64,000 nt of DNA from Sulfodiicoccus acidiphilus. Lineage in GTDB: Archaea > Thermoproteota > Thermoprotei_A > Sulfolobales > Sulfolobaceae. Below are positions 7,973 to 57,850 of this stretch, one piece after another. The position numbers and the translations under genes are program-made. The notes under the pieces were generated by a model. That model was not told the origin of the DNA. It was given only the letters and a program-made list of their open reading frames with translations, and did not search any database. Positions within the stretch are counted from its first letter, which is position 1, and each line of letters starts with the position of its first letter. The stretch lies in NCBI RefSeq assembly GCF_003967175.1, contig NZ_AP018553.1, positions 2,095,982-2,159,981 on the forward strand, read 5' to 3'.

Positions 7973-8839
7973 ATGGAGAGTGACGTCAATAGCAAACTGG
8001 ATGAGCTGCTTAAATGGTTCGAGAGAAACTGCCAAGGCAGGGCCATAGTTGCCCTATCTGGGGGAGTAGACAGCTCTTTGGTGGTTTACGGGGCTTCCAA
8101 GACGCTTGGGAGGGAAAGGGTCTTAGCTGTGACGACGAAGTCCCAGATTAACCTAGACGAGGACCTCCTGTGGGCTGAGAGGGTGGCCTCCTCTGTAGGA
8201 GTTGAGCACGTAGTAATTGAGACGGACGAGTTAAAATATGAAAACTTCAGGAGCAATCCGCCAAACCGGTGTTACTTCTGTAAGGACAACCTTTACAGCA
8301 TAATGGTTAAAATCAAAGGTCCCACCGATACTCTGTTAGACGGACTTAATGCGTCGGACCTCAGGGTTCACAGACCAGGCTTTCTAGCGAAGAGAAAATA
8401 TCAAGTGAGGAGTCCTCTAGCTGAGGTCGGACTCACTAAGGAGGATGTGAGGGGGTTAGCAAAGGTGCTCGGTCTCCCCAATTGGGACAGACCGTCAGAG
8501 TCCTGTCTAGCCTCAAGAGTCCCATACGGGGAAGAGGTAACTCGTGAGAAGTTGGCGAGAATTCGAGAAGCGGAAGTGGCAGTAAAGGAGCTCAGTAACG
8601 TCAGCGTCGTGAGGGTCAGGTCCCACGGTGAACTGGCTAGGATTGAGGTTCCAAAGGAAGAGATGTTCAAATTGTTCGAAAGGGACACTTTCTCCAAGGT
8701 AGCTGATAGACTAGAAGGGTTGGGCTTTACGTATGTGACGATTGACTTGAGGGGATACAGGAGCGGTAGCTTGGACTTAGTTCTCCGGAGAAAGGTAATT
8801 CCACTCGAGGGGGATCGGACATCTCAACATTTAATTTAG
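7973..8839 (+). CDS. larE: LarE, pyridinium-3,5-biscarboxylate sulfurtransferase, probably [4Fe-4S] type
   Basis: 288 residues of the PP-loop ATPase family: the PP-loop SGGVDSS lies at residues 29-35, and the C-terminal motif NWDRPSESCLASRVPYG places Cys178 where Lactobacillus LarE has its sacrificial Cys176. Two further cysteines, C100 and C103 (NRCYFC), complete the three-cysteine set of the LarE class that binds a [4Fe-4S] cluster and transfers sulfur without sacrificing its own cysteine. I therefore favour that mechanism (inference from motif). The ATG at 7973 follows a TATA-like gttaaat at ~7941. It works with LarB and LarC encoded just upstream. Confidence 0.93.
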   Translation: MESDVNSKLDELLKWFERNCQGRAIVALSGGVDSSLVVYGASKTLGRERVLAVTTKSQINLDEDLLWAERVASSVGVEHVVIETDELKYENFRSNPPNRCYFCKDNLYSIMVKIKGPTDTLLDGLNASDLRVHRPGFLAKRKYQVRSPLAEVGLTKEDVRGLAKVLGLPNWDRPSESCLASRVPYGEEVTREKLARIREAEVAVKELSNVSVVRVRSHGELARIEVPKEEMFKLFERDTFSKVADRLEGLGFTYVTIDLRGYRSGSLDLVLRRKVIPLEGDRTSQHLI

Positions 8840-55843: not shown

Positions 55844-55926
55844 GGTTAGAAAACGAAAATTCAAGTATAAAGAGGGACAAACTCTTCCTAACTTCCTCTA
55901 GGAGGGTAGACTGGGAAAAGTTCCCA

Positions 55927-56722
55927 ATGAGGCTCTACCAGCTCGGGAAGAAGTTATTCTGGGATCCCGCGGACCTTGACTTCAGGGCCGACTCTGAAGA
56001 TTGGGAGAAGCTGGAATCGCTAACGAGGAAGGCCTTGCTCCAACTCACGGTCCTTTTCGGGGCAGGAGAGGAAGCTGTGACCTGGGACCTCTCTCCCCTC
56101 ATGTCCGTCCTGACGAAGGAGGGGAGGCTGGAAGAACAAATGTACCTCGAACAGTTCCTCTTCGAGGAGTCCAAACACACTGAGGGCGTTCGCCAGGGCA
56201 CTGGACTTCGTGGCGCCCTCCTTGGACACTACCTTCTATATAGAAAAAATCCCTCATACCGGAAGATATTCTACGAAGAGTTACCCAGAGCCGTAAACTA
56301 CCCCGCCCTCACGGACGGGGTCTCTGGCGGGAAAGATAAACTCCCTCTCGACGGATCGGTCTCCAGAGACACAAGTGAGGGCTGCCACAACTTACATGAT
56401 GGTAGTTGAAGGTGTTCTAGCTGAGACCGCGTACCACGGCTACATAAGGACACTAGAGGAGCTAAAGACCATGCCCACTCTCCTTTCGATGATAAGGAAC
56501 GTAATGAGGGACGAGTCGAGACATATAGCCTTCGGCACATACCTCATTTCTAGGCTGGTGTCACAATACGGAGATAGGGCGTTAGAGACGTTCATGAAAA
56601 GAATGGAGGAGATGACGCCGCTGGCCTTAGGAGTAGTACAGGGCTTCTTCCAGGGCTACGAACAGGCGCCATCTGGGATAGCGGATCCCAAGGAGTATAT
56701 TAACTACGCTCTCTCAGTTTAG
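55927..56722 (+). pseudogene. R2-like ligand-binding oxidase (R2lox), disrupted
   Basis: R2lox proteins carry a heterodinuclear Mn/Fe site. The first part shows FGAGEEAVTWDLSPLM and QFLFEESKHTE (Glu and E-x2-H ligands); the last part shows VVEGVLAETAYHGYIRTLEEL and MRDESRHIAFGTYL. Two lesions separate them. At 56184-56245 the frame is locally shifted: an extra G in gagggcg and a changed A-run give a non-family segment in place of EAFARALDFVAPSLDTTFY. At 56294-56342 a 43-bp palindromic insertion shifts the frame again. Deleting the insertion joins PRAVN to SLSTDRSPETQVRAAT. It is non-functional as written. Confidence 0.85.
56294..56342 (-). mobile_element. 43-bp solo palindromic insertion in R2lox
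   Basis: TAAACT occurs at 56294-56299 and again at 56337-56342, 43 bases apart, flanking ccccgccctcacggacgggg. On the minus strand this reads CCGTCCGTGAGGGCGGGGTA, the right-end palindrome seen elsewhere. 43 is not a multiple of three, so it shifts the frame, and excision restores the gene exactly. No transposase is present, so it was moved in trans or left by imprecise loss. Confidence 0.7.
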
Positions 56723-56809
56723 GTACAGGCTATCCGTGATAGAGAGGGCGAGGTACATGACGCCTCAGCAGGTGGGGAAGATGGGCCTGCGTGACTTAGG
56801 CGTCAATTC

Positions 56810-57850
56810 TTAATTCCAATCAACTATAGCCCTGAGGTGCAGACCCTTTTCCAAGTTAGCATAGGCCTCACCGATGCGCTCAGGAGAGTACCGATGAGTG
56901 ATCAGCTTACTCGGATCTAGCCTCTTGGAGGCCACCATTGTGACTAGCTCTGGAAGGTCTATCCTTGGTCTATATCCCAGGCTTCCTACGATCCTGATTC
57001 CTTTGTTGACGAAGAGGTTAGTTGGGACGGAGAATCCAGAGCCCTGACTACCTAGGCCCGTCACCACTATCGTCCCAGCTCGAGAAATCACGTCCATGGC
57101 GAGCTGAAGGTCAGGGTTGGGCTTGGTCTCGTAAACTACATCTGCCCCTTCTGGCAACAACTCGTTCACAGCGGACGCCACTTCCCCCTTGGAGGCATCT
57201 ACTACATGGGTCGCTCCGAGACGCTGCACCTTCTCTAACTTCTCCGGTACTACGTCCACTGCAATGATGGGGTACATGCCCATGGCAGAGGCCAGTTGGA
57301 CAGCTGACGAACCCACGCCTCCCGTTCCCACCACGACCAAGCTCTGGGAAGGTCCTGCACCCGCGTTTTTCAAGGCGTTGTAGGCAGTTCCGTAAGCGCA
57401 ACTTATTGGTGCGGCGAGGTGTACGTCGACGCCCTTAGCCAGCGGTATTACTCCTATTTCTGGGACGGCGAGGTAGTCGGCGTGTCCGCCCTGAATTCCC
57501 ATTATACCTGTCATCCTGCTCAGGGAGGTTCTGCAGTAGTTCTCCTTGCCTGTAGCACAGTACCTGCACTTCCCGCAAGGCAAGATCCAAGAAACGACCA
57601 CTTGGTCCCCAGGTGAAAGTCCGTACGAGTTGGTTGTCCCAGGGCCCAGGGCTTCCACCCACCCCGAGACCTCGTGGCCTAGGACGAAGCCCTCTTGGAC
57701 TGGGAGGAGCTCCGATTTGAGGAGGTGGACGTCCGAGTGACACACCCCCGATGCCGCCACCCTGACTAGGATCTCCCCATCGCCTGGTAAGGGTTTCTCT
57801 CTATTAACTAGCTTGAGTCCACCTGCTCCGTCGTAGACGGCCGCCCTCAT
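56810..57850 (-). CDS. Zinc-dependent alcohol dehydrogenase (MDR family)
   Basis: 346 residues. Catalytic zinc: C37 (ASGVCHSDVH) and H59-E60 (VLGHEVSGWV). Structural zinc: C92, C95, C98 and C106 (PCGKCRYCATGKENYC). Cofactor motif: VVVGTGGVGSSAVQLASAMG. Length and motifs match tetrameric archaeal ADHs that use NAD. It is followed on the same strand by the SCP2 gene's neighbourhood and lies beside R2lox. Confidence 0.92.
   Translation of the reverse strand: MRAAVYDGAGGLKLVNREKPLPGDGEILVRVAASGVCHSDVHLLKSELLPVQEGFVLGHEVSGWVEALGPGTTNSYGLSPGDQVVVSWILPCGKCRYCATGKENYCRTSLSRMTGIMGIQGGHADYLAVPEIGVIPLAKGVDVHLAAPISCAYGTAYNALKNAGAGPSQSLVVVGTGGVGSSAVQLASAMGMYPIIAVDVVPEKLEKVQRLGATHVVDASKGEVASAVNELLPEGADVVYETKPNPDLQLAMDVISRAGTIVVTGLGSQGSGFSVPTNLFVNKGIRIVGSLGYRPRIDLPELVTMVASKRLDPSKLITHRYSPERIGEAYANLEKGLHLRAIVDWN

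Follow-up and report, generated by a model that had tools for sequence, protein, structure and literature searches.

In the genome of Sulfodiicoccus acidiphilus we analysed a stretch of 64,000 nucleotides (the window; contig NZ_AP018553.1, positions 2,095,982 to 2,159,981), in which the gene for the R2-like ligand-binding oxidase R2lox is interrupted by an insert of 43 bp that bears a palindrome and encodes no protein. This 43-mer almost certainly represents an IS1341-type (TnpB-only) IS200/IS605 element in terminal-only form, with the outer feet of both element ends kept around a single hairpin. We favor, at a probability of roughly 0.55, a history in which a full element inserted into R2lox and then shrank to 43 bp.

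The insert in R2lox and its anatomy

A preliminary description of this DNA had already proposed that a 43-bp, palindrome-bearing insertion interrupts R2lox and that its removal rejoins the gene, and the central part of that proposal holds. When one 43-base period is removed, the R2lox halves are joined in frame, and the joined SYRKIFYEELPRAINSLSTDRSPETQ aligns ungapped with eight intact family homologues, none of which (0/8) has an insertion at this site. The R2lox orthologue from the same genus (genome G001) is likewise empty, with TTCAT at the homologous position, and no relative that we checked carries the insert in a functional gene. PF00268 matches this orthologue with E = 8.6e-20 and each window half with about 1e-6. 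Cutting out the 43 bp does not restore an intact R2lox, however, because further frame breaks lie near 56183, 56250 and 56720. Across the stretch 55880-56830, the reading follows the first frame to about 56183, the second to about 56250 and the first again to the insert, and then the second to about 56720 and the third to the end. Barring assembly or sequencing error, several breaks of frame make R2lox a pseudogene, and its loss cannot be put down to the 43-bp insert alone.

Positions of the insert, its parts and the interrupted gene in the window
Feature	Position	Strand	Remarks
43-bp single-hairpin ('terminal-only') element	56293..56335	-	CTTTCCCGCCAGAGA-CCCCGTCCGTGAGGGCGGGG-TAGTTTAC; boundaries transferred from viral empty/filled pairs
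Hairpin	56301..56320	-	CCCCGTCC-GTGA-GGGCGGGG; common to left and right ends of full elements
Left-end foot	56321..56335	-	CTTTCCCGCCAGAGA; one base off CTTTCTCGCCAGAGA of full elements
Right-end foot	56293..56300	-	TAGTTTAC; terminates in right cleavage motif TTTAC
Left flanking motif (target/left cleavage motif)	56336..56340	-	TTTAT; host DNA, outside element; TTCAT at most other copies
R2lox pseudogene	55900..56813	+	Broken by insert plus at least 3 further frame breaks

On the plus strand, the surroundings of the insert read ...AGAGCC GTAAACTA CCCCGCCCTCACGGACGGGG TCTCTGGCGGGAAAG ATAAACTCCC..., and TAAACT occurs at 56294-56299 and 56337-56342, a spacing of exactly 43 with an imperfect palindrome in between. 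On the minus strand, an outer left foot and an outer right foot flank one hairpin, and the copy is a chimera of a left and a right end. Neither foot is an inverted repeat of the other, GTAG lies 3' of the hairpin, and GAGA, the last four bases of the left-end foot, would by analogy occupy the position of the IS608 guide sequence. The 34-nt core (left foot, hairpin and right foot) has a single zero-mismatch occurrence in the window, its best chance match in five Markov-shuffled 64-kb sequences has at least 12 mismatches, and the 19-nt palindrome had 0 matches in 100 shuffles. An Rfam search of the window returned tRNA alone and no other RNA match.

Parent elements, further copies and the insertion rule

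Allowing up to three mismatches, we find the palindrome at 100 genomic positions, and most of these are right ends of elements terminating in GTAGTTCAC, or their matching left ends. A second element family, whose left ends have the form TTCAT/CTTTCTCGCCAGAGA-hairpin-AGTGTAAATA and whose right ends have the form ACCCCGAAG-hairpin-TAGTTTAC (slashes mark element boundaries here and below), comprises three full copies of ~1.27 kb, at about 454,880-456,155, 1,162,557-1,163,839 and 2,019,769-2,021,041, and about six copies of ~400 bp in which the hairpins lie ~230-360 bp apart and most of tnpB is gone. In all three full copies (L064, L065 and L066) tnpB is frameshifted. The left and right feet of the window copy match the two different ends of these three elements, its left foot being one base from the left ends at 454,880 and 1,163,817, and the hairpins at the two ends of a full element are direct repeats with up to 20/20 identical bases. 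The window copy does not have a subterminal hairpin at each end, and because a single hairpin is left, we class it as a derivative of the IS200/IS605 family rather than a full member. At five places (L178, L263, L264 and L265 (G018), and L270 (G041)), the hairpin is broken just past its loop by CGGTAGACCCAAAATC; here a further element seems to target hairpins, like the SMR-A elements in Haloquadratum.

As the preliminary description had suggested, similar short insertions are found elsewhere, as copies of 42-45 bp in the genome and in viruses (minis). The window's genome (G000) has seven clear single-hairpin copies, at 802,171, 1,499,744, 1,887,669, 2,036,021, 2,047,099, 2,152,274 (the window copy) and 2,179,378, and three decayed or doubtful ones at 225,097, 825,178 and 2,177,362, for a total of 7-10, the first two of the three being too decayed for firm counting. 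Genome G003, from another Sulfolobales genus of the same family, has seven minis and one full element. No mini was found in G018, which has five full left ends, or in G001, which has one, and the other genomes searched in the family yielded no minis at the stringency used. In IMG/VR we found five minis, every one on a contig with DNA in common with that of Sulfolobus monocaudavirus SMV1 (75-88% identical across 40-85% of the stretch queried); a full copy, its TnpB reading frame intact, is present on one related viral contig. A further viral match (L123), with flanks unlike the element, was taken as chance. A scan of 84,980 genomes, from which records near the window were possibly excluded, gave one match in Thermococci, with no recognisable left foot apart from GAGA, and five in bacteria, which we took as chance, the variable positions being different and the flanks unrelated; a search of a plasmid collection gave no mini match. 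At the minis at 1,887,669 (L062) and 1,499,744 (L205), left-end-like sequence of another element (AAAATTCGGGGGTTGAGG.. and AAAGTCGG.., respectively) abuts the terminal TTTAC, as if this right terminus had been used as a target by another IS200/IS605-type element.

The viral copies provide exact empty sites. In the viral contig L242, the sites filled in contigs L118 and L122 are both empty: L242 reads GTCGACTTCAT/CTTTTCAACTTGC where L118 reads GTCGACTTCAT/CTTTTGACACCTGAGACCCCGTCCGTGAGGGCGGGGTAGTTTAC/CTTTTCAACTTGC, and GCGAATTCAT/TTCTTCTTC where L122 reads GCGAATTCAT/CTTTCCACCACCAGAGACCCCGTCCGTGAGGGCGGGGTAGTTTAC/TTCTTCTTC, so that it differs from the filled contigs by exact single steps of 44 and 45 bp. 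The flanks of L118 and L242 differ at 3 of 634 bases on the right (99.5% identical) and at 0 of 50 on the left. From these two pairs, the cuts lie after TTCAT on the left and after TTTAC on the right, with no target duplication. The TAAACT repeats that the preliminary description had placed at the edges of the insert are thus not its boundaries, and a TAAACT target-site duplication is ruled out; the repeats correspond instead to the left motif TTTAT and the right terminus TTTAC. A boundary at TTCA^/TTTA^ would also give 43 bp but predicts TTCACCTTTTC and TTCACTTCTTC, where L242 has TTCATCTTTTC and TTCATTTCTTC. With SMV1 itself as the empty reference, the L118, L121 and L122 sites look empty, although less exactly than with L242, the L119 site has an extra indel and the L120 alignment was not useful; for the minis of G003, family homologues did not span the insertion junctions. 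L118 also carries, around 8140-8250, another short GTAGTTCAC-type element where L122 holds a mini.

Because the viral pairs fix the cut sites, the boundary of the insert at R2lox can be set at 56293-56335. The empty alleles are TTCAT/CTTTTCAAC at the L118 site, TTCAT/TTCTTCTTC at the L122 site and, as predicted, TTTAT/GGCTC at R2lox. The predicted pre-insertion sequence of the window is GAGCC/ATAAACTCCC, which would read GCC ATA AAC TCC (A-I-N-S) and give PRAINSL. This agrees to within one base with the junction proposed earlier, which was in the same frame; its period was shifted by one base and gave V instead of I (PRAVNSL). TTCAT stands to the left of the minis in L118, L119 and L122, at the empty L118 and L122 sites of L242 and in the R2lox of G001, whereas a minority of copies have TTCGT or TTAAT. 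The TTTAT of the window copy equals the left motif of the TnpB-only elements of Sulfolobus islandicus (PMC10640517). Insertion 3' of a fixed short motif that is kept in the left flank, with a separate cleavage motif at the right terminus, is the rule of the IS200/IS605 family as described for IS608 (PMC5934647), and it is what we find here.

Collapse of a full element or movement of the mini

In the history that we favor, a full ~1.27-kb element or a ~400-bp internally deleted copy would have inserted 3' of TTTAT in R2lox by single-strand transposition, with the transposase TnpA supplied in trans and no target duplication. A deletion between the ~20-bp direct-repeat hairpins would then have dropped the core and one hairpin, leaving left foot, hairpin and right foot in 43 bp; because the hairpins of both ends are direct repeats, a single deletion yields exactly this structure. 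Left feet differ between minis, and several equal those of full-element or ~400-bp-copy subtypes exactly: the mini at 2,036,021 has the left foot of the ~400-bp copies, the G003 mini at 1,070,299 that of the full element of G003, and the viral minis in L118 and L119 those of full elements in G018. This variation, together with the matches to longer copies, points to minis having arisen anew repeatedly rather than by the spread of one master mini. Such a collapse has a precedent in Haloquadratum: in four cases, one strain has the complete HqIRS46 and the second strain a terminal-only version of 52 bp, and the TnpB element ISHwa23 has likewise been shortened from 1500 to 52 bp (PMC3119063).

Several observations weigh against this history. 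We found no locus with a full element where a relative has a mini, and in the SMV1-like viruses minis outnumber full copies by 5 to 1. The L118 mini sits in flanks 99.5% identical to those of its empty relative, which on this history would place insertion and collapse alike in the recent past. Moreover, we saw no full parent for four left-foot types, each of which is present at two unrelated sites.

These observations fit the main alternative, which we consider possible at somewhat less than even odds, that the 43-mer is itself mobile. One hairpin keeps both cleavage sites (TTTAT or TTCAT on the left, TTTAC on the right), and a TnpA acting in trans would peel out and paste a strand of 43-45 nt. 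In IS608, each hairpin is preceded on its 5' side by a guide of four nucleotides that pairs with the cleavage motif (PMC5934647). In the mini, the GAGA left guide may serve both cuts, TTCAT or TTTAT differing from TTTAC at one or two of five bases, and two minis may fill the two places of the TnpA dimer; normal IS608 transposition uses one left and one right hairpin, but crystals have also been obtained of the IS608 TnpA dimer together with two left-end hairpins (PMC5934647). Mobility would account for the exact one-step differences of the viral contigs from the near-identical L242, although a longer element that collapsed after insertion would leave an identical structure. It would also account for minis being more numerous than full copies (7:1 in G003 as well as 5:1 in viruses) and for the left feet shared in the absence of a parent copy (CTATTAACACC twice and TTTTTTCGCC twice in G003, CCTCATCGCC twice in G000 and CTTTCCACCACC twice in viruses). 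In one Haloquadratum strain, every one of the six strain-specific insertions of ISHwa23 is of the 52-bp form, and the study's authors suspect that such copies are mobilised (PMC3119063). On the other side, the feet of the minis are heterogeneous, and G018, which holds exact parents of two viral minis, has no mini among its five full left ends.

Two findings on transposases also weigh against movement of the mini: a search with the general Y1_Tnp family PF01797 identified no matching intact TnpA in G000, whose one intact Y1 transposase sits in an element with other ends, and the TnpA of G003 is broken. TnpA+TnpB elements in G018 and G012 (L176, L177 and L179) have the same right-end hairpin as here and a different left end; given this shared hairpin, one TnpA might serve both TnpA+TnpB and TnpB-only elements. 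SMV1 carries an IS200/IS605 element (PMC3839810). On balance, we lean slightly toward collapse after insertion over mobility of the mini.

Two further readings have very little in their favor. That the insert is a solo right end, as the preliminary description had it, produced by truncation, is highly improbable: dozens of elements in the genome have right ends that match the hairpin and TAGTTTAC, but the other side of the hairpin holds a left-end foot (GCCAGAGA) instead of right-end sequence (GGAAACCCCGAAG), which refutes this reading, and relatives carry no element sequence on either side of the insert. We give equally little credence to a repetitive extragenic palindromic (REP)-like repeat mobilised by a REP-associated tyrosine transposase (RAYT, or TnpA-REP) and unrelated to TnpB elements; each copy is a single short hairpin, copies are many and GTAG stands beside the stem, but in REPs the GTAG sits 5' of the palindrome, where IS608 has its guide (PMC8266576), whereas here it lies 3', and full TnpB elements have the same two feet.

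Implications and relation to known systems

If the mini moves, it would be among the smallest mobile elements known, and it sets a lower bound on the requirements of an IS200/IS605 transposase (a single hairpin and a single guide) while offering biochemistry a 44-nt substrate. If it is instead a scar, it corresponds within the IS200/IS605 family to a solo long terminal repeat, and its formation is a route by which archaea and viruses could lose TnpB elements yet keep a gene-breaking short insertion. Either way, it accounts for a group of orphan hairpins found in some Sulfolobales genomes, and the viral pairs of empty and filled sites make the mobility question raised in Haloquadratum testable.

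Terminal-only elements are already known from haloarchaea and are reported here from Sulfolobales and their viruses, for which we found no description of terminal-only minis in the open-licence papers searched. The closest relatives are the terminal-only palindrome-associated transposable elements (PATEs) of Haloquadratum walsbyi (HqIRS46, and ISHwa23 at 52 bp; Dyall-Smith et al. 2011, PMC3119063), in which the core and one near-terminal palindrome were lost between direct repeats, as we propose here. PATEs and the 43-mer alike keep both outer ends, derive from IS605-type TnpB elements, lack a duplication and encode no protein. The two ends of the genome's full TnpB elements bear the palindrome of the 43-mer, both outer ends are present with the core and one palindrome missing, and neither the viral pairs nor the R2lox orthologue reveal a target duplication. 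The differences lie in size (43-45 bp), in hosts (Sulfolobales and their bicaudaviruses rather than haloarchaea) and in the insertion rule TTCAT^ / TTTAC^, which is read here from exact viral empty sites. The insert is not a miniature inverted-repeat transposable element, as it has no terminal inverted repeats and its empty sites show no duplication.

Other known systems share part of this anatomy. The IS1341-type elements of Sulfolobales, such as the solo tnpB elements of S. islandicus with their TTTAT motif (PMC10640517), have the same ends, hairpins and left-flank motif, whereas the 43-mer is without tnpB, the presumed omega-RNA-encoding region and one hairpin. The miniature elements SMN1 and SMN2 of Sulfolobus and SMV1 (PMC3839810) are also short and non-autonomous, are thought to be driven by an IS200-type TnpA and likewise occur in SMV1, where the annotated SMN2 copy is 251 bp. 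Finally, bacterial REP sequences and their RAYTs offer another case of single short hairpins related to IS200/IS605 ends, and the 43-mer differs from them in its clear derivation from TnpB elements.
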